Shown here piece by piece: positions 6,033-17,818 of a stretch of DNA of 64,000 bases. The notes beneath the pieces were generated by a model. That model did no database searches, was not told where the DNA came from, and saw nothing but the letters and a program-made list of their open reading frames with translations. How positions within the stretch are numbered: position 1 is the first letter of the stretch; every line of letters begins with the position of its first letter. The stretch spans positions 2,604,001 through 2,668,000 of the forward strand of contig NZ_BNEB01000005.1 in NCBI RefSeq assembly GCF_016860545.1. Direction: 5' to 3'. This DNA comes from Streptomyces asoensis. GTDB lineage: Bacteria; Actinomycetota; Actinomycetes; Streptomycetales; Streptomycetaceae. Both the position numbers and the translations under genes were made by a program.

Positions 6033-7901
6033 GTGATGCCCAGGACACCTGCAACCCCCGCCGACCGTTCAGCCGTCCGCTCGCTGCTGCGTCTGTGGCC
6101 GTACGTGCGTCCGGTGCGCCTGCGGCTGTCCACGGCCGCCTTCGTCGCCGTCCTCGCGTCCTGTACGGGGCTGGTCATCCCGCTCGTCCTGAAGTGGATG
6201 GTGGACGGGCCGGTCGCCGACCGGGACACCGCCGGCGTGTGGCTCGGAGCGCTCTGGCTGCTGCTGCTCGGCTTCGCGGAGGCGCTGCTGTTCGGCATGC
6301 GGCGCTGGCTGGTGGCGCGTCCGCTGTCGCACGTCGAGGCGGAGATGCGGGCGGATCTGTACGGGCGGCTCCAGCGGCTGCCGGTGGCCTTCCACGACCG
6401 CTGGCCCTCGGGGCAGCTGCTGTCCCGGGCGACGGCCGATCTCGGGCTGCTGCGCATGTTCCTCGCGTTTCCCCTGACGTTCCTGCTGGTCAACTCGGTG
6501 ACGATCGTCCTCGGCGTCGCCGTCATGCTGGTCCAGGACTGGCGGCTGGGGCTGGTCGTCCTCGGCCCGGCCGTCCCCGTCGTGGTGATGTGCGTGCTCT
6601 TCGAGCGCCGCTACGCGCACGTGGCGCGGCGTGCCCAGGACCAGGTCGGCGATCTGACGACGGTGGTCGAGGAGAGCGTCCTCGGGATCCGGATCATCAA
6701 AGGCTTCGGCCGGCACCGCACCCAGGCGCGGGCCTTCCGGGAGCTGTCGCGGAGCCTGCGCGGCACGGAGCTGCGCAAGGCCCGGCTGCTGGCCACCATC
6801 TGGGCCGTCATCGTGACGCTCCCCGAGCTGGCCATCGGCGCCGCGCTGGTGCTCGGCGTCGTCCGGGTCGCGGACGGCGAGCTGTCCGCGGGCACCCTGG
6901 TCGCCTTCCTGTCCACCGCGCTGGCGCTGCGCTGGCCGGTGGACTCGATCGGGTTCCTGCTGGCGATGAGCCAGGAGGCGGCCACGGCGACGGAGCGGTA
7001 CTTCGAGGTGATGGACGAGGAGCCGGAGGAACCCGGCACACCCTCGGGCCGCACCGCGGACACGGGCGGCGCCGAGCGCCCCGCCGAAGACGCGCCCTCC
7101 GGCGGCGCCGGGCCGCCCGTGCCGTCCGGCGGAGGTCTGCGGTTCCACGGCGTCACCTTCCGCTATCCCGACGCCTCCCCCGACTCCCCGCCCACCCTCG
7201 ACGGCGTCGACCTGCACATCCGCTCCGGCGAGTCGATGGCGCTGGTCGGGGCGACCGGCAGCGGGAAGACCACCCTCACGGCCCTGGTCCCCCGGCTGCA
7301 CGAGGTGACCGCCGGCCGCATCACCCTCGACGGCGAGGACATCACCGCCCTGTCCCGCGCGCAGCTGCGCGCCCGCGTCGCCGTCGCCTTCGAGGAGCCC
7401 ACCCTCTTCTCGGCGACCGTCGGCGAGAACGTCCTGATGGGCGCCGACGACGACGCGGGCCCCGTCGAGCTGGAGCGGGCGCTGGACGTGGCGCAGGCCC
7501 GGTTCGTGCACGACCTGCCGCAGGGCGTCGAAACCCAGGTCGGCGAGCAGGGGCTCAGTCTCTCCGGCGGTCAGCGCCAGCGCCTCGCGCTGGCCAGAGC
7601 CGTCGTCGGGCGGCCCGGCTTCCTCGTCCTGGACGACCCGCTCTCGGCGCTGGACGTGCACACCGAGGCCGCCGTGGAGGCCGCGCTGCGCCAGGTCCTC
7701 AGCGGCACCACGGCGCTGATCGTGGCGCACCGCCCGTCCACCGTGCTGCTCGCGGACCGGGTCGCCCTGCTGTCCGGCGGGCGCGTCACCGCCGTGGGCA
7801 CCCACCACGAACTGCTGCGCACCAACAGCGAGTACGCCCACCTCATGTCCGGAGAGGAATCCGGCGCCCGGTTCGCGCACCAGGAGGCCGACCGCCGATG
7901 A
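6033..7901 (+). CDS. ABC exporter half-transporter A (degenerate catalytic Glu)
   Basis: Six-helix membrane domain fused to a nucleotide-binding domain, 622 residues, of the multidrug/lipid exporter class. The membrane domain spans about 25-320, followed by a Gly/Pro-rich linker (about 335-365). In the NBD the Walker A (GATGSGKTT, near 406) and signature (LSGGQRQR) are intact. The Q-loop reads FEEPTLF (Gln replaced by Glu) and Walker B reads LVLDDP, so the catalytic Glu is Asp. The switch His (VAHRPST) is present. It overlaps the next gene by ATGA, so the two are translationally coupled and should form a heterodimer in which this subunit supplies the degenerate ATP site. GTG 6033 or ATG 6036 could be the start. 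The transported compound is unknown. Confidence 0.9.
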   Translation: MMPRTPATPADRSAVRSLLRLWPYVRPVRLRLSTAAFVAVLASCTGLVIPLVLKWMVDGPVADRDTAGVWLGALWLLLLGFAEALLFGMRRWLVARPLSHVEAEMRADLYGRLQRLPVAFHDRWPSGQLLSRATADLGLLRMFLAFPLTFLLVNSVTIVLGVAVMLVQDWRLGLVVLGPAVPVVVMCVLFERRYAHVARRAQDQVGDLTTVVEESVLGIRIIKGFGRHRTQARAFRELSRSLRGTELRKARLLATIWAVIVTLPELAIGAALVLGVVRVADGELSAGTLVAFLSTALALRWPVDSIGFLLAMSQEAATATERYFEVMDEEPEEPGTPSGRTADTGGAERPAEDAPSGGAGPPVPSGGGLRFHGVTFRYPDASPDSPPTLDGVDLHIRSGESMALVGATGSGKTTLTALVPRLHEVTAGRITLDGEDITALSRAQLRARVAVAFEEPTLFSATVGENVLMGADDDAGPVELERALDVAQARFVHDLPQGVETQVGEQGLSLSGGQRQRLALARAVVGRPGFLVLDDPLSALDVHTEAAVEAALRQVLSGTTALIVAHRPSTVLLADRVALLSGGRVTAVGTHHELLRTNSEYAHLMSGEESGARFAHQEADRR

Positions 7902-9763
7902 CCGCTCCCACCACCGCTTCGGCCTCCGCCGTCGCCGACGACGACGCCGAGGCCGCCCCGCGGACCACCGCCGACGACCCCTTCGACAGGGACGTCCTGC
8001 CGGCCCCGCCCGGCGCGACGGGCGCGCTCCTGCGTTCGCTGCTGGCGCCCCTGCGGGCCCGGGTCGCGTTCACCTCGCTCCTGCTGCTGCTCCAGCAGGC
8101 GGCCGTGCAGGCGGGTCCGCTGCTGGTGGCGTACGCCATCGACCGGGCGGTGCCGGCGTTCCGCGCCGGCGACGACGGCCCGCTGGTCGCTGTGGGCGTC
8201 GGCTACCTGCTGTGCGCGCTGGCCTCCGGCGGACTCCAGTACGCGTTCCTGATCGCCTCCGCCCGCGTCAACCAGGACGTGCTCCTGGACCTGCGCGGCC
8301 GGATCTTCCGGCACGCGCAGGCGCTGAGTCTCGACTTCCACGAGCGCTACACCTCGGGCCGGCTGATCTCCCGCTCGACCAGTGACGTGGAGGCGCTGCG
8401 CGAGCTCCTCGAGGAGGGTCTCCAGGAGCTCGTGACGGTCGTGCTGTCCTTCCTGTCCATCTCCGCGATGCTGCTCTGGCTGGACCTCGGGCTGGGCGCG
8501 GTCGCGGTGGCCTCCTTCGGCCCGCTGTACCTCCTCGTCCGGCTCTACCAGCGGCGGGCCGGCCGGGTCTACGCCGCCCGCTCCACGGCGATCGCGGCCG
8601 TGATCGTGAAGTTCGTCGAGACGATGAACGGCATCCGGCCGGTGCGGGCCTTCCGCCGCGAGGCCGTCAACGACGAAGGCTTCCGCGTCCTGAACCGGCG
8701 GCACGAGCGCAGGAACGGCGACGCCCTGCTGGAGATGGCCCGTTACGTCGTCGGATCGCGGCTGGTCGCCAACAGCGCGGTCGCGGTGATCGTCCTGTGG
8801 GGCGCGATGCGGGTCGCGGACGGCTCGCTGGAGCTGGGAGTGCTGGCCGCGTCCGTGCTCTACCTGCGACGGCTGTACGACCCGATCGACCGGCTGGGCA
8901 TGTTCCTCAACTCCTACCAGTCGGCGGCCGCCTCGCTCCACAAGATCGCGGGGCTGCTCGCGCAGACGCCGTCCGTTCCCGAGCCGGCCGTTGCGCTGCG
9001 GCTCCCGCCCCTGGAGACCGAGCTGCCGGGCCGCGAGGTCGTCTTCGACGACGTCTCCTTCAAGTACCGCACGGGCGGCGAGGTCCTGCCCCGTTTCGGC
9101 CTCACCCTGCCCGCCGGGCAGACCGTGGCCGTGGTCGGCTCGACCGGCGCGGGCAAGTCCACACTGGCCAAGCTGCTGGCCCGTTTCTACGACCCGTCCG
9201 CGGGGCGGGTGCTGCTGGACGGGGTCGATCTGCGCGACCTGGACCTGCCCGAACTGCGGCGCGGGGTGGTCATGGTGACGCAGGAGGCGTTCCTGTTCTC
9301 CGGCACGGTCGCCGAGAACATCGCCATCGGGCGGCCGGACGCGGACCGGGCGGAGATCGAGCGGGCGGCCAAGGCGATCGGGGCGCACGAGTTCATCAGC
9401 GCGCTGCCCGACGGCTACGACACCGACGTCCGCAAGCGCGGGGGGCGCATCTCGGCCGGCCAGCGCCAACTGGTGGCCTTCGCGCGGGCGTTGCTCGCCG
9501 ACCCGGCGGTGCTGATCCTCGACGAGGCGACCAGCTCGCTCGACGTCCCGGGCGAGCGGGCCGTGCAGGCGGCGATGACGACGGTGCTGAAGGGCCGCAC
9601 GGCGGTGGTGATCGCGCACCGGCTGTCGACCGTGGAGATCGCCGACCGGGTCCTGGTCATGGAGCACGGCCGGATCGTCGAGGACGGCAGCCCGGACGCG
9701 CTGATCGCCGGCACCGGCCGGTTCGCGGACCTGCACCGGGCCTGGCGGGACAGTCTCGCCTAG
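7898..9763 (+). CDS. ABC exporter half-transporter B (canonical ATP site)
   Basis: Partner of the preceding half-transporter, 621 residues, starting at the ATG inside the ATGA overlap. A hydrophilic Ala/Asp-rich N-terminus (about 45 residues) leads into a six-helix membrane domain and an NBD with Walker A GSTGAGKST (near 413), Q-loop TQEAFLF, Walker B LILDEAT with the catalytic Glu, and His switch IAHRLST. The signature is altered to ISAGQRQ. The complete Walker residues here would pair with the intact LSGGQ of subunit A to form the one competent hydrolysis site. The gene is followed after 54 bp by a second ABC pair, which may belong to the same transcript. Substrate not deducible. Confidence 0.92.
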   Translation: MTAPTTASASAVADDDAEAAPRTTADDPFDRDVLPAPPGATGALLRSLLAPLRARVAFTSLLLLLQQAAVQAGPLLVAYAIDRAVPAFRAGDDGPLVAVGVGYLLCALASGGLQYAFLIASARVNQDVLLDLRGRIFRHAQALSLDFHERYTSGRLISRSTSDVEALRELLEEGLQELVTVVLSFLSISAMLLWLDLGLGAVAVASFGPLYLLVRLYQRRAGRVYAARSTAIAAVIVKFVETMNGIRPVRAFRREAVNDEGFRVLNRRHERRNGDALLEMARYVVGSRLVANSAVAVIVLWGAMRVADGSLELGVLAASVLYLRRLYDPIDRLGMFLNSYQSAAASLHKIAGLLAQTPSVPEPAVALRLPPLETELPGREVVFDDVSFKYRTGGEVLPRFGLTLPAGQTVAVVGSTGAGKSTLAKLLARFYDPSAGRVLLDGVDLRDLDLPELRRGVVMVTQEAFLFSGTVAENIAIGRPDADRAEIERAAKAIGAHEFISALPDGYDTDVRKRGGRISAGQRQLVAFARALLADPAVLILDEATSSLDVPGERAVQAAMTTVLKGRTAVVIAHRLSTVEIADRVLVMEHGRIVEDGSPDALIAGTGRFADLHRAWRDSLA

Positions 9764-9817: not shown

Positions 9818-11626
9818 ATGATCGACGCGTACGAGGATCCCGGGACGCCCGACCGCCGCGGCGGCTGGGCGTACCTGGCCTGGCTGGTGCGCTGCCAGCC
9901 GTGGCGGTCGCTGGCCGGGGCGGCCTTGGCCAGCGTATGGATGGTGCTGCTGGCCGCGGCGCCCTACCTGCTGTCCAGGGCCGTGGACGACGGTCTCGAA
10001 CCCGGTGACACGGGGGCGCTGGTGGGCTGGACCACGGCGCTGTTCGTGGTGGGCGCGCTCAACGCATGGATCAGCATCATGCGCCACCGCACCATGACCC
10101 GGGTGCGCATGGACGCCTACCTCCGCACCACCAAGGTCGTCGTCGGACACACGGTCCGGCTCGGTGCCGCCCTGCCGCGCCAGGTGAGCACCGGGGAGGT
10201 CGTCACCATCGGCGTGAGCGACGTGCACACGATCGCGGGCGCCCTGACGGTGGTGGGGCCGGGCGTCGGCTCGGTCGTCGTCTACGTCTTCGTCGCCGGA
10301 CTGCTGCTGTCGGTGTCGCCGCTGCTCGCCGCGGTCGTCCTGCTGGGGATGCCGGCGGTCGCGGTGCTGGTCGGGCCGCTGATGTCACGGTTGCAGGGCA
10401 CGGAGACCGAGTACCGGGAGCGGCAGGGCGTGCTCACCGCGCGGATCGGTGATCTCGCGGCCGGGCTGCGGGTGCTCAACGGGCTCGGCGGCAAGGGGCT
10501 GTTCGCGGACTCCTTCGGCCGGGACTCGCGGCGGCTGCGCGAGCAGGGCTACCGGGTCGGCGCGGTCACCAGCTGGATGCAGGCGCTCGGGACGGGCCTG
10601 CCGACGCTGTTCCTCGCGGTGGTGACCTGGCTGGCGGCCCGGCTCGCCGCCCAGGGGGACCTGACGGTGGGCCAGCTGGTGTCGGTGTACGGCTATGTCG
10701 CCGTCCTGGTCGGGCCGGTGGCGTTCCTCGTGGACATGGGCTACCAGCTCGGCAGGGGGGTGGTGGCGGCCCGGCGCGTGGTGGACCTGCTGCGGCTGGA
10801 GCCGGATCCCGACACCGCGCCCGGCACCGTCCCCGGGGGCGCGGACGCGCCGGGCGAACCGGCGGCGCTGCACGATCCCGCCTCGGGTGTGCACGTGGCG
10901 CCGGGCCGGCTGACGGCCTTGGTCGGCGCGCGGCACGCGGAGGTGTCCGCCGTCGTGGACCGGCTCGGGCGCTACGGTCCCTCGGACGCCACCTGGGGCG
11001 GTGTACGGCTGGACGCCGTGCCGCTGGACCGGGTCAGGGCCGCGATCCTGGTCGCCGACCCCGAGGCCGACCTGTTCGCCGGATCCCTGCGCGAGGTGGT
11101 GGGCGGACGGCGCGAGCCCTCCCCGGCCCGGGTGGCGCGGGCGGTCCGGGCGGCGGCCGCCGACGACATCGTGCAGGGGCTGCCGCAGGGGCTCGCCTCG
11201 CCCGTGACCGCGCAGGGACGCAGCCTTTCCGGGGGCCAGCGGCAGCGGGTACGGCTGGTGCGGGCGCTGCTCGCCGATCCCGAGGTCCTGCTGGCCGTGG
11301 AACCGACGTCGGCGCTCGACGCCCACACGGAGGCGGCGGTCGCAAAGGGGCTGCGCACGGAGCGGGCCGGCCGGACCACGGTCGTGACCACGACCTCCCC
11401 GCTGCTGCTGGCCCGGGCGGACACCGTGCACTACCTGGTCGACGGGAAGGTGGCGGCGAGCGGCCGCCACCGGGACCTGCTGGAACGGGAACCGGGCTAC
11501 CGGACCCTGGTGGCCCGCGACACGGACGACACGGAAGCCCACGACGCGGAGACGGACGCGGACGCCGGGGCGGGTACGGACGCCGGGGCGGGTGCGGGCG
11601 TGGACACGGGGGAGGCCGTGCGATGA
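9818..11626 (+). CDS. ABC exporter half-transporter C with inactive NBD
   Basis: Six-helix membrane domain plus an NBD, 602 residues; GGAAGGA lies upstream of the ATG at 9818. The membrane domain (about 15-315) looks normal (for example LVGWTTALFVVGALNAWISI). The NBD has lost nearly every ATP-handling residue: Walker A reads VGARHAEVSAVV with no GKS/T (near 368), the Q-loop reads LVADPEADLF, Walker B reads LLAVEPTSALD (Asp to Val), and the switch His region reads VTTTSPLLL. The signature LSGGQRQR is perfect. This is the pattern of a subunit that only donates its signature to the partner. The C-terminus is an acidic Asp/Ala/Gly tail (about 565-602). It overlaps the next gene by ATGA. Confidence 0.9.
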   Translation: MIDAYEDPGTPDRRGGWAYLAWLVRCQPWRSLAGAALASVWMVLLAAAPYLLSRAVDDGLEPGDTGALVGWTTALFVVGALNAWISIMRHRTMTRVRMDAYLRTTKVVVGHTVRLGAALPRQVSTGEVVTIGVSDVHTIAGALTVVGPGVGSVVVYVFVAGLLLSVSPLLAAVVLLGMPAVAVLVGPLMSRLQGTETEYRERQGVLTARIGDLAAGLRVLNGLGGKGLFADSFGRDSRRLREQGYRVGAVTSWMQALGTGLPTLFLAVVTWLAARLAAQGDLTVGQLVSVYGYVAVLVGPVAFLVDMGYQLGRGVVAARRVVDLLRLEPDPDTAPGTVPGGADAPGEPAALHDPASGVHVAPGRLTALVGARHAEVSAVVDRLGRYGPSDATWGGVRLDAVPLDRVRAAILVADPEADLFAGSLREVVGGRREPSPARVARAVRAAAADDIVQGLPQGLASPVTAQGRSLSGGQRQRVRLVRALLADPEVLLAVEPTSALDAHTEAAVAKGLRTERAGRTTVVTTTSPLLLARADTVHYLVDGKVAASGRHRDLLEREPGYRTLVARDTDDTEAHDAETDADAGAGTDAGAGAGVDTGEAVR

Positions 11627-13488
11627 CGGTGGCCGACGGGACCGCGGGACGGCTGCCGGTCGCCGGGCCCGCCGAGGTGCGCCGGGCGGCGGCCCGGCTG
11701 CTGCGCGCCGACCGGCGCGCGTTCGCCGGCGTCCTCGCCCTGAACGTGCTCGCCGCCGGGGCCGGGCTGGCCGGCCCGTGGCTGCTGGGACGGATCATCG
11801 ACGAGGTGCGGGCCGGGCACGGCACCGCGTCCGTGGACCGGCTCGCGGCGGCCATCACGGTGTGCGCGGTCGCCCAGCTGCTGCTGACCCGCTGGGCGCG
11901 GTACGCGGGGCACCGCTTCGGCGAGCGGACGCTGGCCCGGGTGCGTGAGGAGTTCGTCGGGCGGGCGCTGGCGCTGCCCGCGTCCGTGGTGGAGCGGGCC
12001 GGCACCGGCGATCTGACCACGCGCGGCACGGCCGATGTGGCCGCCGTGGGCACGACCCTGCGCGACGCCGGGCCCGAGCTGCTGGTCTGCACGGTCCAGG
12101 CGCTGGTCACGCTCGGCGCGGTGTTCCTGATCGACCCGCTGCTCGGAGCGATCGGGGTGCTGGGGCTGACCCCGATCTGGTTCGCGTTGCGCTGGTACCT
12201 GCGGCGGGCCCGGGCCGCCTATCTCGCGGAGGGCGCGGCCACCTCGGAGGTCGCGGAGATCGTCGCCGCCACGGCGTCCGGGGCCCGGACGGTCGAGGCG
12301 TTCCGGCTGCGGGAACGGCGGACGGCGGCGAGCCGGGACGCGCTGGAGACCTCGCGCCGCACCCGCTTGCGCACCCTGGGCCTGCGCTCGGTGTTCTTCC
12401 CGGTGATCGAGGTGTCGTACTCACTGCCGGTGGCGGGCGTGCTGCTGCTGGGCGGCGTGCTGCACGCGCGCGGTGCGATGAGTCTGGGGGCGGTGGTGGC
12501 GGCCGCGCTGTACCTGCGTCAGTTCACCGAACCGCTCGACCAGATCCTGCTGCGCGTCGAGCAGCTCCAGAGCAGCGGCGCCTCGTTCGCCCGGGTGGAG
12601 GGGCTGGCCCGCGCGCCGCGCACCGGGCCTGCCGGCGGGGCGCCCGTCCCGGCGGACGACCGGATCGACGTGACCGGCGTGCGGTACGCGTACGAGCACG
12701 GCGGCGAGGTGCTGCGCGGAGTCGATCTGACGGTGCGGCCCGGGGAACGGCTCGCCGTCGTCGGTCCGTCGGGCGCGGGCAAGACCACGCTGAGCAGGCT
12801 GCTGGCCGGCGTGGACGCGCCGGGCACGGGCACGGTGACGGTGGGCGGGGTGCCGGTCGCGGATCTGGCGCCGGAGACGCTGCGCCGGCAGGTCGTGCTG
12901 GTCACCCAGGAACACCATGTCTTCCTCGGCACGGTCCGTGAGAACCTGCTGATCGCCGAACCGGCTGCCGACGACGCGCGGTTGTGGGCGGCGCTGGCCT
13001 CGGTCGGCGCCGCGGGCTGGGTCGGGGAGCTGCCCGGCGGCCTGGACACCGTGCTCGGTACGGGTGAACGCCGCACCGACGGATCCCAGGCGCAGCAACT
13101 CGCCCTGGCCCGGGTGGTGCTGGCCGACCCGCACACGCTGATCCTGGACGAGGCGACGGCCCTGCTGGACCCGACGACGGCCCGGCACACCGAACGCGCG
13201 CTGGCCGCCGTGCTCCGGGGCCGGACGGTCATCGCCATCGCCCACCGTCTGCACACCGCGCACGACGCGGACCGGGTCGCCGTCATGGAGGACGGCCGGC
13301 TCACCGAACTCGGCACCCATGACGCGCTGGTGGCGTCCGGCGGGCGGTACGCGGCGCTGTGGCGGACGTGGCACGGGGAAAGGGACGGGGCGGGAACCGG
13401 GGCCGCGGCAGAGGCCGGGGCTGGAAAAGGGGACGGCGCAGAGGGCGGCGACGACGCCGGGCGGAGCCGGAGCGAGAGCCCGGCCTGA
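11623..13488 (+). CDS. ABC exporter half-transporter D (active NBD, degenerate signature)
   Basis: Partner of subunit C, 621 residues. Walker A GPSGAGKTT (near 379), Q-loop TQEHHVFL, Walker B LILDEATALLD and switch His IAHRLHT are complete. The signature is degenerate: TDGSQAQQLALAR replaces LSGGQ. Its defects are exactly complementary to those of subunit C, so the dimer would have one full ATP site made of D's Walker motifs and C's LSGGQ. The C-terminus is a Gly/Ala/Glu-rich low-complexity tail (about 585-621). It is the last gene of the four-gene ABC group; about 300 bp without a gene follow before the first M4 protease. Confidence 0.92.
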   Translation: MTVADGTAGRLPVAGPAEVRRAAARLLRADRRAFAGVLALNVLAAGAGLAGPWLLGRIIDEVRAGHGTASVDRLAAAITVCAVAQLLLTRWARYAGHRFGERTLARVREEFVGRALALPASVVERAGTGDLTTRGTADVAAVGTTLRDAGPELLVCTVQALVTLGAVFLIDPLLGAIGVLGLTPIWFALRWYLRRARAAYLAEGAATSEVAEIVAATASGARTVEAFRLRERRTAASRDALETSRRTRLRTLGLRSVFFPVIEVSYSLPVAGVLLLGGVLHARGAMSLGAVVAAALYLRQFTEPLDQILLRVEQLQSSGASFARVEGLARAPRTGPAGGAPVPADDRIDVTGVRYAYEHGGEVLRGVDLTVRPGERLAVVGPSGAGKTTLSRLLAGVDAPGTGTVTVGGVPVADLAPETLRRQVVLVTQEHHVFLGTVRENLLIAEPAADDARLWAALASVGAAGWVGELPGGLDTVLGTGERRTDGSQAQQLALARVVLADPHTLILDEATALLDPTTARHTERALAAVLRGRTVIAIAHRLHTAHDADRVAVMEDGRLTELGTHDALVASGGRYAALWRTWHGERDGAGTGAAAEAGAGKGDGAEGGDDAGRSRSESPA

Positions 13489-13789: not shown

Positions 13790-15835
13790 GTGTTGAGCAG
13801 CAGTCTCTCTCGCAGACGCACCCCCCACACCCCCCGTCGCGCCGCGGCCGTCGCCCTCGTCGGCGTCTGCGCGCTCATCGCCGCCGCCGTACAGTCCGGC
13901 GCCGCGGTCGCGGCCCCGGAGGGCACGCCGCAGGCGGGCCGGGCGAACCCGGGCGCCGAGTCCGTGCGCCTCACCCCCGCCCAGCGCGCCGCGCTGATCC
14001 ACGAGGCGGACGCCGGCAAGGCGGCCACCGCCAAGCAGCTGGGCCTGGGCGCCAAGGAGGCGCTCGTCGTCCGTGACGTCGTCAAGGACGCGGACGGCAC
14101 CCTGCACACCCGCTACGAGCGCACCTACGGCGGACTGCCGGTCCTCGGCGGCGACCTCGTCGTCCAGACCGCCGCGTCCGGCGCCACCGAGGACGTCACC
14201 AAGGCCACCCGGGCCGCCATCAAGGTCGCCTCGCTCTCGCCGGCCCTCAGCGCGGCCAAGGCGCAGAAGCAGGCGCTGAGCCTCGCCACGGCGGCCGGCG
14301 CCGAGAGCCCGGCCCTCAACCGGGCGCCGCGCACGGTGATCTGGGCGGCGAACGGCACCCCGGTCCTGGCGTACGAGACGGTCGTCGGGGGCCTCCAGGA
14401 GGACGGCACCCCCAACGAGCTGCACGTCGTCACCGACGCGGCCACCGGCAAGAAGCTCTACGAGTACCAGGGCGTCGAGACCGGCATCGGCAACACCATG
14501 TACAGCGGCCAGGTCACCCTGGGCACCACGCAGTCGGGTTCGACGTACAACCTGACCGACGCGGCACGCGGCGGACACAAGACGTACAACCTGAACCGGG
14601 GCACCTCCGGCACCGGCACCCTCTTCTCGGGCCCGGACGACACCTGGGGCAACGGAGCGGCGTCGAACACGGAGACCGCGGGCGCCGACGCCCACTACGG
14701 CGCGGCCCTGACCTGGGACTACTACAAGAACGTGCACGGCCGCTCCGGCATCAGGGGCGACGGGGTCGGCGCGTACTCCCGGGTCCACTACGGCAACAAC
14801 TACGTCAACGCGTTCTGGCAGGACAGCTGCTTCTGCATGACGTACGGCGACGGCTCGGGCAACACCCACCCGCTCACCGCCATCGACGTGGCCGGCCACG
14901 AGATGACGCACGGCGTCACCGCCAACACCGCGGGACTCAACTACAGCGGTGAGTCCGGCGGCCTCAACGAGGCCACCTCGGACATCTTCGGCACCTCCGT
15001 CGAGTTCTACGCCCAGAACTCCTCCGACGTCGGCGACTACCTCATCGGCGAGGAGATCGACATCAACGGCGACGGCTCGCCGCTGCGTTACATGGACAAG
15101 CCGAGCAAGGACGGCTCGTCGAAGGACAGCTGGTACTCCGGGATCGGGTCGGTGGACGTCCACTACTCGTCCGGCCCGGCGAACCACTTCTTCTACCTGC
15201 TGAGCGAGGGCAGCGGCGCGAAGGTCATCAACGGCGTGAGCTACAACTCGCCGACCTCGGACGGCCTTCCGGTCACCGGCATCGGCCGGGACAAGGCGGA
15301 GAAGATCTGGTTCCGCGCGCTCAGCACCAAGTTCACCTCGACCACCAACTACGCGGCGGCGCGCACCGGCACCCTCGCGGCGGCGGGCGAGCTGTACGGC
15401 ACGACCTCCACCGAGTACAAGGCGGTGCAGGACGCGTGGGCCGCTGTCGCGGTCGGCGCCCGGTCCGGCGGGGGCGGCGGCGGAGGCACCTCGTTCGAGA
15501 ACACGGCCGACGTATCGATTCCGGACAACGGGGCGGCGGTGACCTCCTCGGTCACCGTCTCCGGCCGGACCGGCAACGCGCCCTCGAACCTCGCGGTGGG
15601 CGTCGACATCGTGCACACCTACATCGGTGACCTCCAGGTGCAGCTGGTCGCCCCCGACGGCTCGGCGTACACGCTGAAGGCGTACGGCACCGGCGGCAGC
15701 ACGGACAACATCAACACCACGTACACCGTGAACGCGTCTTCCGAAGTCGCCAACGGTGTATGGAAGTTGCGGGTCCAGGACAACGCGGCCCAGGACACCG
15801 GCTACATCAACAGCTTCAAGCTGACCTTCCCGTAG
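13790..15835 (+). CDS. secreted M4 (thermolysin-type) metallopeptidase with P domain
   Basis: Extracellular zinc neutral protease, 681 residues. The GTG at 13790 lies only 3 nt after AAGGAG; TTG at 13793 has better spacing and is the alternative start. A signal peptide (about 1-45, AAAVALVGVCALIAAAVQSG) is followed by a pro-region with the FTP/PepSY-type fold (YERTYGGLPVLGGDLVV, about 107-125). The catalytic domain contains HEMTH (near 370-374) and the downstream zinc Glu in GGLNEATSDIFG. After a poly-Gly linker (near 562-568) comes a P/Homo-B type domain (NLAVGVDIVHTYIGDLQVQL), absent from the neighbour. A strong terminator follows at 15885. The tandem paralogue has long nearly identical DNA stretches, indicating duplication or gene conversion. 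Confidence 0.93.
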   Translation: MLSSSLSRRRTPHTPRRAAAVALVGVCALIAAAVQSGAAVAAPEGTPQAGRANPGAESVRLTPAQRAALIHEADAGKAATAKQLGLGAKEALVVRDVVKDADGTLHTRYERTYGGLPVLGGDLVVQTAASGATEDVTKATRAAIKVASLSPALSAAKAQKQALSLATAAGAESPALNRAPRTVIWAANGTPVLAYETVVGGLQEDGTPNELHVVTDAATGKKLYEYQGVETGIGNTMYSGQVTLGTTQSGSTYNLTDAARGGHKTYNLNRGTSGTGTLFSGPDDTWGNGAASNTETAGADAHYGAALTWDYYKNVHGRSGIRGDGVGAYSRVHYGNNYVNAFWQDSCFCMTYGDGSGNTHPLTAIDVAGHEMTHGVTANTAGLNYSGESGGLNEATSDIFGTSVEFYAQNSSDVGDYLIGEEIDINGDGSPLRYMDKPSKDGSSKDSWYSGIGSVDVHYSSGPANHFFYLLSEGSGAKVINGVSYNSPTSDGLPVTGIGRDKAEKIWFRALSTKFTSTTNYAAARTGTLAAAGELYGTTSTEYKAVQDAWAAVAVGARSGGGGGGGTSFENTADVSIPDNGAAVTSSVTVSGRTGNAPSNLAVGVDIVHTYIGDLQVQLVAPDGSAYTLKAYGTGGSTDNINTTYTVNASSEVANGVWKLRVQDNAAQDTGYINSFKLTFP

Positions 15836-16153: not shown

Positions 16154-17818
16154 GTGACCTCCCTCTACGCGCGTCACAAGCGCACCACTCTGGCCATCGC
16201 CACCGCCGTCGCGGCCGGAGCCCTGGTCACCACCGGACTGACCTCCGGTACCGCCGCCGCCCAGACCCCGGCTGAGGCCGGCGGCAAGTCCGCCCCGCTG
16301 GCCGCACCGGTCCAGCTGTCGGCCGCCGCCCGCACGACGCTCATCAAGCAGCAGCAGGCCGACGCTCCCGAGACCGCCCGGACCATAGGCCTCGGCACCA
16401 AGGAGGCCCTGGTCGTCAAGGACGTCGTCAAGGACGCCGACGGCACGGTCCACACCCGGTACGAGCGCACCTACGGCGGACTGCCGGTCCTCGGCGGCGA
16501 CCTCGTCGTCCACGAGTCCGCGAGCGGCGCGGCCAAGGGCGTCACCAAGGCCAACCCGGCCACCATCAAGGTGGCCACGCTGACCGCGAAGGTCGCCCCG
16601 GCCAAGGCCGAGAAGCAGGCCCTCACCGCCGCCAAGGCCGTGGGCTCCGAGTCCACCTCGGCCGACCAGGCACCCCGCAAGGTGATCTGGGCCGCGGGCG
16701 GCACCCCGGTCCTTGCCTTCGAGACGGTCGTCGGCGGTCTCCAGGACGACGGCACCCCGAGCGAGCTGCACGTCATCACCGACGCGGCCACCGGCAAGAA
16801 GCTCTACGAGTACCAGGGCATCGAGACCGGCACCGGCAAGAGCCTCTACTCGGGCACGGTCACGCTGGGCACGACGCTGTCGGGCTCGACGTACCAGCTG
16901 ACCGACGGCACCCGCGGCGGCCACAAGACGTACAACAAGTCGCACACCACGACCTCCTCGGCGGGCACGCTCTTCACCGACGCGGACGACACGTGGGGCA
17001 CCGGCGCGGCCTCCAGCTCCACCACGGACCAGACGGCCGCCGTCGACGCCGCCTACGGCGCGCAGGTCACCTGGGACTTCTACAAGTCCACCTTCGGCCG
17101 CAGCGGCATCAAGAACAACGGCGTCGCCGCCTACTCCCGCGTCCACTACGGCAACGCGTACGTCAACGCGTTCTGGGACGACAGCTGCTTCTGCATGACC
17201 TACGGCGACGGCTCGGGCAACACCCACCCGCTGACCTCGCTGGACGTGGCCGGCCACGAGATGAGCCACGGCGTCACCTCGAACACGGCGGGCCTGAACT
17301 ACAGCGGTGAGTCCGGCGGCCTCAACGAGGCCACCTCCGACATCTTCGGCACGGGCGTGGAGTTCTACGCGGCCAACTCCAACGACGTCGGCGACTACCT
17401 CATCGGCGAGAAGATCAACATCAACGGCGACGGCACGCCGCTGCGTTACATGGACAAGCCCAGCAAGGACGGCGGCTCGTCGGACTACTGGTCCTCCACC
17501 GTCGGCAACAAGGACGTCCACTACTCGTCCGGCGTCGCGAACCACTTCTTCTACCTCCTCTCGGAGGGCAGCGGCTCCAAGACGATCAACGGCGTCACGT
17601 ACAACTCGCCGACGTACAGCGGCACCGCGGTCACCGGCATCGGCCGCGCCAAGGCGCTCCAGATCTGGTACAAGGCCCTGACGACCTACTTCACGTCGAC
17701 GACGAACTACAAGTCGGCGCGGACGGGCACGCTCAGCGCTGCCTCGGCCCTGTACGGCTCCACCAGCACCGAGTACAAGGCCGTCGCGGCGGCCTGGACG
17801 GGCGTCAACGTCAGCTGA
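16154..17818 (+). CDS. secreted M4 (thermolysin-type) metallopeptidase, short form
   Basis: Extracellular zinc protease, 554 residues, from the GTG at 16154, which has AAGGAG (16143-16148) at ideal distance. The signal peptide (TTLAIATAVAAGALVTTGL) is followed by a propeptide with the same YERTYGGLPVLGGDLVV segment as the upstream paralogue. The catalytic domain has HEMSH (near 367-371) and GGLNEATSDIFG carrying the third zinc ligand. The protein ends right after the catalytic domain (AAAWTGVNVS) and lacks the P domain of its neighbour. The two genes have separate terminators and probably separate promoters, and share an upstream motif. Likely role: nutrient scavenging or morphological differentiation. 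Confidence 0.94.
   Translation: MTSLYARHKRTTLAIATAVAAGALVTTGLTSGTAAAQTPAEAGGKSAPLAAPVQLSAAARTTLIKQQQADAPETARTIGLGTKEALVVKDVVKDADGTVHTRYERTYGGLPVLGGDLVVHESASGAAKGVTKANPATIKVATLTAKVAPAKAEKQALTAAKAVGSESTSADQAPRKVIWAAGGTPVLAFETVVGGLQDDGTPSELHVITDAATGKKLYEYQGIETGTGKSLYSGTVTLGTTLSGSTYQLTDGTRGGHKTYNKSHTTTSSAGTLFTDADDTWGTGAASSSTTDQTAAVDAAYGAQVTWDFYKSTFGRSGIKNNGVAAYSRVHYGNAYVNAFWDDSCFCMTYGDGSGNTHPLTSLDVAGHEMSHGVTSNTAGLNYSGESGGLNEATSDIFGTGVEFYAANSNDVGDYLIGEKININGDGTPLRYMDKPSKDGGSSDYWSSTVGNKDVHYSSGVANHFFYLLSEGSGSKTINGVTYNSPTYSGTAVTGIGRAKALQIWYKALTTYFTSTTNYKSARTGTLSAASALYGSTSTEYKAVAAAWTGVNVS

Follow-up and report, generated by a model that had tools for sequence, protein, structure and literature searches.

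The 64,000-nucleotide stretch of the Streptomyces asoensis genome analyzed here (the window; contig NZ_BNEB01000005.1, positions 2,604,001 to 2,668,000) encodes two adjacent half-exporters of the ATP-binding cassette (ABC) type, subunits C and D, whose nucleotide-binding motifs are divided between the two proteins in such a way that, judged by sequence alone, the pair contains one complete composite ATP site. With a probability of about three in four, C/D is a heterodimeric type IV ABC exporter, the class formerly called type I, that has been cut down to one nucleotide site per dimer. The gene of C spans positions 9818..11626 and encodes 602 amino acids, and that of D spans positions 11623..13488 and encodes 621. 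These open reading frames (ORFs), proposed in an earlier note on the window (the original prediction), were confirmed; the end of C and the start of D overlap in the sequence ATGA. Both genes and all motifs described for them are on the plus strand. Each protein is the product of a separate gene and consists of an N-terminal transmembrane domain (TMD; Pfam PF00664, ABC_membrane) followed by a C-terminal nucleotide-binding domain (NBD; PF00005, ABC_tran), with matches above the Pfam cut-offs. The ABC_tran match of C is limited to profile positions 81-137, that is, without the part that contains Walker A.

Most of the cis ATP-site motifs are altered or missing in subunit C. The Walker A position is occupied by GARHAEVS (residues 370-377; 10925..10948), in which the inner glycine and the lysine are gone. 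In a HMMER alignment that is gap-free across the P-loop, the C segment grltalvGARHAEVSavvdrlgr is paired with GKTVAVVGGSGSGKSTVVSLIER of a solved ABCB-type chain, placing GARHAEVS opposite GGSGSGKS, and a MAFFT alignment concurs. The Q-loop LVADPEADLF (residues 411-420; 11048..11077) has no glutamine. The Walker B aspartate is replaced by valine in LLAVEPTSALD (residues 491-501; 11288..11320), and the histidine of the switch region TTTSPL (residues 524-529; 11387..11404) by threonine. The signature LSGGQRQR (residues 470-477; 11225..11248), the trans element for the site of D, is intact. These losses next to a perfect signature are those given in the original prediction, and the alignments to solved chains confirm them. 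Two features go beyond that description. The A-loop and its aromatic residue are also missing, and an element with the pattern DPxSG, LHDPASG (residues 351-357; 10868..10888), lies near the expected A-loop site instead. Furthermore, the Walker B glutamate and the SALD D-loop are retained in C.

Subunit D has the full set of cis motifs: the A-loop VRYAYEH (12679..12699), Walker A GPSGAGKTT (12763..12789), the Q-loop VLVTQEHHVF (12895..12924), Walker B with the D-loop LILDEATALLD (13138..13170), and the switch region IAIAHRLHT with His541 (13231..13257). Its signature is the degenerate TDGSQAQQ (13075..13098). The alignment agrees with the earlier description of D, which had listed all Walker elements together with this altered signature.

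The split of the motifs is conserved among relatives of the two proteins. Orthologues (81 of C and 79 of D) were taken from 80 named loci, 79 of Streptomyces and one of an Actinobacteria bacterium, with matches above 34% identity and 250 bits for C and above 43% and 230 bits for D. The column of the Walker A lysine in the C orthologues contains alanine in 48 sequences, threonine in 15, serine in eight, valine in six, glycine in two, and leucine and cysteine in one each. The A-loop columns are gaps in 81/81 C orthologues, the Q-loop glutamine, Walker B aspartate, and switch histidine occur in 0/81, and the Walker B glutamate and SGGQRQR are present in all 81. The A-loop tyrosine and the lysine, glutamine, aspartate, glutamate, and histidine of the remaining motifs are present in 79/79 D orthologues, none of which contains SGGQ.

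A wider tally comprised ORFs of at least 400 amino acids with near-full profile coverage. The removal of identical and over-long rows reduced 296 C sequences to 244 (224 of clade I and 20 of clade II) and 222 D sequences to 197 (183 and 14); 71 of the C and 72 of the D sequences are from the named loci. Clades were assigned by profile score, independently of Walker A, and one locus that is split into short frames (L335) was excluded. The pattern G-x4-G-K-[ST] and the aligned Walker A lysine are present in 0/244 distinct C relatives and in 197/197 distinct D relatives, and therefore the split is not due to chance. The last glycine of the P-loop, the switch histidine, and an A-loop tyrosine or any other aromatic residue are each found in 0/244 C sequences; 243 of them have a gap in the tyrosine column, and one has aspartate there. 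The Q-loop glutamine occurs in a single C sequence. SGG is present in all 244 and SGGQ in 242 of the C sequences, and SGGQ in 0/197 D sequences. The A-loop tyrosine (Tyr357 of D), Q-loop glutamine, Walker B aspartate, and switch histidine are each present in 197/197 D relatives, and the Walker B glutamate in 196, the remaining position being unreadable. In 160 of the 162 loci that contain a single C and a single D, the two proteins complement each other exactly; in the other two, the C signature reads SGGR or SGGE. The original prediction had suggested looking for the same pattern in orthologues, where it recurs, and its claim that C and D together make exactly one complete site is supported at the level of sequence.

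The D-loop adds to the complementarity. Its aspartate is present in 244/244 C and 183/183 clade I D sequences but in 0/14 clade II D sequences, which contain AEAG or ADAG; the clade II C proteins keep TAVD or a similar D-loop (loci L180, L287-L294, L336-L338, L343, and L344). Therefore, the trans contribution of D to the dead site, the one opposite the complete site, is also gone in clade II, and the complementary loss extends to a further motif. The conserved D-loop of C and its loss from clade II D support the earlier view of C as a pure donor of the signature; the Walker B glutamate kept in C limits this view, since not quite all cis residues are lost. This glutamate is found in 209/224 clade I but only 5/20 clade II C sequences, and the Walker B aspartate is still present in 29/244. 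Neither distribution fits simple erosion.

The history of the loss was followed in two phylogenetic trees. A quick tree contained 113 rows (sequences of 480-650 residues, with clade I thinned to every third locus number), and the main tree contained 61 rows hand-picked from these, with the motif columns omitted and the root placed at the midpoint. In the main tree, all 20 rows of C proteins without Walker A form one clade (ultrafast bootstrap 100, Shimodaira-Hasegawa-like approximate likelihood ratio test 98, 100% of 200 bootstrap trees). It is mirrored by a clade of their D partners with 100/100 support, which comprises 18 rows and includes two partial clade II partners. The quick tree concurs on both clades. 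C adjoins halves with a degenerate cis face that have Walker A (L325/L327 and L185/L186), and D adjoins consensus halves (L341, L342, and the neighboring half-exporter B of the window). The deep branches of the midpoint-rooted tree are weak, and the position of the clade of neighbor A is not resolved. The most parsimonious interpretation is that Walker A was lost once, before clades I and II separated. No intermediate forms between halves with Walker A and C proteins without it were found among the weaker profile matches inspected, each of which proved to be either a further C protein without Walker A or an ordinary half that has it.

The nearest outgroup is the L185/L186 family, which is placed beside the C clade with 99/93 support on long branches. 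A search for this family gave a match in 36/61 genomes, and 30 loci were examined, including the copy of the window genome. Walker A is present in all 29 relatives that were read, which come from other Streptomyces, and an A-loop aromatic residue in 0/30 loci, the window genome's copy included. A member in the window genome, L186 (G000:C5:314800-320000; ORF 317577-319487, minus strand), is a half-exporter without the Walker A lysine and the switch histidine (GRSGAATSL, TRRTAT). To judge from the sequences of its relatives, the loss of the lysine in L186 is apparently recent and independent of that in C. L186 alone deviates among the copies read, which is how a recent isolated loss looks; the pattern of C is unlike this.

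Selection was compared between C and D as the ratio of nonsynonymous to synonymous polymorphism (pN/pS) in motif stretches chosen by hand. The P-loop has a pN/pS of 0.329 in C versus 0.033 in D, the Q-loop 0.269 versus 0.021, and the switch region 0.224 versus 0.021. In C, the trans elements are under tight constraint, with 0.052 for the signature and 0.032 for Walker B with the D-loop. The medians for the whole TMD are alike (C 0.402, D 0.373). The pattern in C is that of a maintained protein in which the constraint has shifted off most of the cis ATP face. The degenerate signature of D is constrained as well (pN/pS 0.081), which indicates a lasting function, probably as a contact surface.

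These values bear on the possibility that C is a decaying pseudogene or a local error, and that D forms a homodimer or has another partner. The far greater tolerance of the C P-loop to change would suit such decay, as would the occurrence of an apparently recent loss in the same genome (GRSGAATS in L186, against an intact Walker A in 29 relatives). However, in each of the 80 named loci, C aligns in a single open frame that covers query residues 30-540 or more, its signature and D-loop have pN/pS values of 0.03-0.05, with SGG and the D-loop aspartate each conserved in 244/244 relatives, and its TMD is constrained like that of D. A homodimer of D would have no canonical site, because SGGQ is missing from all 197 D relatives. 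A decaying or erroneous C is thus highly improbable. The lack of Walker A in every one of the 244 distinct C relatives speaks against recent decay. A frameshift or sequencing error is likewise improbable, because a scan of all six frames over positions 10781-11110 revealed no G-x4-G-K-[ST] and because the relatives share the loss. The original prediction had named an orthologue with an intact Walker A and a frameshift restoring the motif as findings that would speak against it, and neither was encountered.

In the proposed mechanism of a C/D exporter with one nucleotide site, the A-loop, Walker A, Q-loop, Walker B, and switch of D would combine with the signature and D-loop of C into one composite ATPase site. 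A single ATP bound and hydrolyzed there would drive the closure and opening of the NBDs. C would act as the trans donor of signature and D-loop and as a transmembrane half. In the mirror site, C would offer none of the usual cis nucleotide contacts save the Walker B glutamate, and D would offer no signature and, in clade II, no D-loop. The dead interface is most likely nucleotide-free, and protein-protein contacts would hold it in place of the ATP "glue". We infer from the motifs that C binds no ATP, that one ATP is spent per cycle, that protein contacts stand in for the glue, and that the function of the pair is export. On balance, we favor the broader view that C/D belongs to an ancient and widespread exporter family with one bound nucleotide per dimer, in which evolution has left the second site free of nucleotide and replaced the ATP glue by protein contacts.

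Several observations weigh against a dimer with a single nucleotide site. The physical pairing of C with D is deduced solely from gene adjacency and the complementarity of the motifs. The mirror image of constraints is imperfect, as the A-loop stretch of D has a pN/pS of 0.347, close to the 0.412 of the replacement stretch of C. With pN/pS values of 0.22-0.41, purifying selection still acts on the dead face of C, which may do more than idle. Residues of the cis face persist in some C proteins: the Walker B glutamate in the 209 clade I sequences mentioned above, aspartate and glutamate together in 26/224, and the Q-loop glutamine in 1/244. The AlphaFold2 model of D is poor in the NBD. Lastly, chains of TM288, which we take to be the consensus half of TM287/288, are among the best Foldseek matches of C, so that a fold search does not separate the halves.

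The AlphaFold2 models have mean predicted local distance difference test scores of 80 (C) and 70 (D). Over residues 14-569, the C model matches heterodimeric exporters, with chains of TmrAB, MsRv1273c/72c, TM287/288, and BmrCD in the top rows of Foldseek and VIA-align. Because chains from both halves of some solved pairs match the C model, distinguishing the halves by fold was abandoned; near-ties and root-mean-square deviations of 6-7 Å over both domains leave the fold ranking with little weight. In a sequence search of the PDB, the best 60 matches listed include YheI (BmrC) and TM287 for C, and TM288 and TmrA for D, where the half that each of these chains represents is our assumption. The halves are better separated by the sequence search than by the fold search. 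A shortening of the P-loop in the C model was also considered and dropped, since the helix begins three residues past the first P-loop glycine in the models of both C and D, and the D NBD is of low confidence.

C/D resembles MsRv1273c/72c, TM287/288, BmrCD, TmrAB, and the transporter associated with antigen processing (TAP) in being built of two TMD-NBD halves with one consensus and one degenerate composite site. As in other degenerate-site exporters, the signature of the consensus half is degenerate. BmrCD and TmrAB keep Walker A and the A-loop at the degenerate site. MsRv1273c is described as binding ATP at the degenerate site through Walker A and the A-loop tyrosine, and its authors regard this ATP as glue and the degenerate site as essential (PMC12038006). 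ATP is likewise reported to occupy this site in TM287/288 (PMC5216877) and TAP (PMC12422388), and the three accounts state that it stabilizes the contact across the NBDs. In contrast to MsRv1273c, TM287/288, and TAP, the Walker A and A-loop of the degenerate half are gone in C. The loss of the catalytic Walker B glutamate is presented as a hallmark of a degenerate half (PMC7544095), but this residue is kept in the C of the window and in most of clade I, though in only a minority of clade II. Going by its sequences, C/D is built like a heterodimeric type IV exporter, but the nucleotide-binding motifs that such exporters retain at the degenerate site are missing from it.

The presence of ATP at the degenerate site of the studied exporters (PMC12038006, PMC5216877, PMC12422388) raises the possibility that C/D is an ordinary degenerate-site exporter, in which ATP is held by C in some unconventional manner at the dead site and serves as the usual glue. 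The retained Walker B glutamate of clade I would fit such binding, as would the dead face of C, which shows a conservation pattern of its own (DPxSG, LVADxEADLF, and TSPL). However, few recognized contacts for adenine or phosphate are left: the aromatic residue, P-loop lysine, last P-loop glycine, and switch histidine are missing from all C relatives and the glutamine from all but one, and SGGQ is missing from all D relatives. We consider this explanation unlikely. It is slightly less likely still that another ligand or a regulator now binds where C formerly bound nucleotide, with C as a sensor half. The replacement residues D353, G357, and S527 are invariant across 17 divergent sequences and the pN/pS values of the dead face are below 1, as a new ligand would explain, but the same conservation is expected from constraints of the fold or from contact with D.

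The nearest published parallels encountered are Pdr5, ABCG5/ABCG8, and the beta isoform of human ABCB5. In Pdr5, all motifs of one site deviate, with the Walker A lysine changed to cysteine, and the signature of the partner is LNVEQ (PMC7756269); nucleotide contact is still described for the deviant site (PMC8421411). Pdr5 and the fungal PDR proteins are single eukaryotic polypeptides with the NBD first, whereas C/D is encoded by two genes with the TMD first; the changes in Pdr5 are substitutions, whereas C has neither an A-loop nor a remaining P-loop pattern. ABCG5/ABCG8 has a degenerate site with altered Walker A and signature (PMC7756269), but it is a G-family transporter in which the change of Walker A is described as lysine to arginine only. 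The first NBD of the beta isoform of human ABCB5 is said to be without Walker A (PMC3029322); as portrayed in that source, however, this isoform is a half-transporter-like variant of a gene that also encodes a full-length form with two complete NBDs, rather than a conserved family. Thus, none of the three represents a conserved family that is devoid of both Walker A and the A-loop. No description of a conserved family of Walker-A-less half-exporters was found in the literature searched, which covered few subscription journals and is weak evidence of absence.

The C/D family lends itself to testing whether ATP at the second site is required by pumps of this type. A half that cannot plausibly bind ATP separates the contact at the interface from the ATP bound there, and if the proposed mechanism is true, ATP at the degenerate site would be dispensable for this architecture. 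C relatives occur at E ≤ 1e-60 in 131/150 Streptomyces genomes, either as orthologues or as members of a paralogue family of about 40% identity, and laboratory strains are therefore likely to carry a pair.

Beyond the genus, the C profile was matched against samples of the order, class, and phylum. In the order sample (119 genomes, of which 104 are Streptomyces), 116 genomes have a match at E ≤ 1e-70 and 108 at E < 1e-170, the level reached by clade I. In the class sample, the corresponding numbers are 148/246 and 95/246; the counts at E < 1e-170 were taken from the listings of both samples. Motifs were read only in the fetched loci, and some of the weaker matches in the class are ordinary exporters that have Walker A. 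The phylum sample gave matches at 1e-90 in 19/198 genomes, of which nine belong to the class (eight Streptomyces and one other) and ten do not. Among the matches in these ten, seven lack Walker A (L332-L338), and the other three (L339, L341, and L342) are ordinary halves that have it.

The window genome itself contains three C/D-type pairs: that of the window, one at C2:1130905 (L072), and one at C5:1796710 (L180). In the paralogue L072 (G000:C2:1127800-1133700), Walker A is gone and Walker B, VLVLDEP, is intact, which suggests that Walker A was lost before Walker B in that branch.

The arrangement of the genes is also conserved. D is downstream of C in 78/80 named loci, and the remaining two end with the contig; in the 78 loci, the D alignment starts at most 554 bases past the end of the C alignment. 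No fusion of C and D was found in the orthologous loci inspected, where they occupy separate frames. Directly upstream of C/D lies a second pair of half-exporters, neighbors A (6033..7901, plus strand) and B (7898..9763, plus strand), both with ABC_membrane and ABC_tran domains. A keeps Walker A (GATGSGKTT) and the A-loop tyrosine, and has a Q-loop glutamate in place of glutamine (FEEP) and two aspartates in Walker B (LDDP), as in an ordinary degenerate half. Its partner B has complete cis motifs and the signature ISAGQ. From its motifs, A/B looks like an ordinary degenerate-site heterodimer, and it differs from C/D in the Walker A and A-loop tyrosine that A retains. Both A and B accompany C in 60/80 orthologous loci, and A, B, or both in 69/80. 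Thus, two kinds of asymmetric exporter adjoin each other.

Two tandem genes of M4 (thermolysin-type) metallopeptidases follow on the 3' side of D (13790-15835 and 16154-17818). M4 genes are near C/D in 72/80 orthologous loci (summed from the listing) but in 0/20 wider loci around other C/D-type pairs, and the association may reflect a functional link or plain synteny. The gene surroundings of the 20 wider loci, assessed by crude gene calls and a comparison of 20 neighbor proteins with Pfam, are mixed. One locus (L353) includes a condensation-domain protein. L361 (G067:C1:8322000-8340000) is the only one of the 20 with a multi-module biosynthetic cluster: its C/D pair lies amid a non-ribosomal peptide synthetase module, an S15 peptidase with a TubC docking domain, a pyridoxal phosphate enzyme, and a polyketide synthase module. 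The position of this relative inside such a cluster makes small molecules or peptides plausible substrates for some members of the family.

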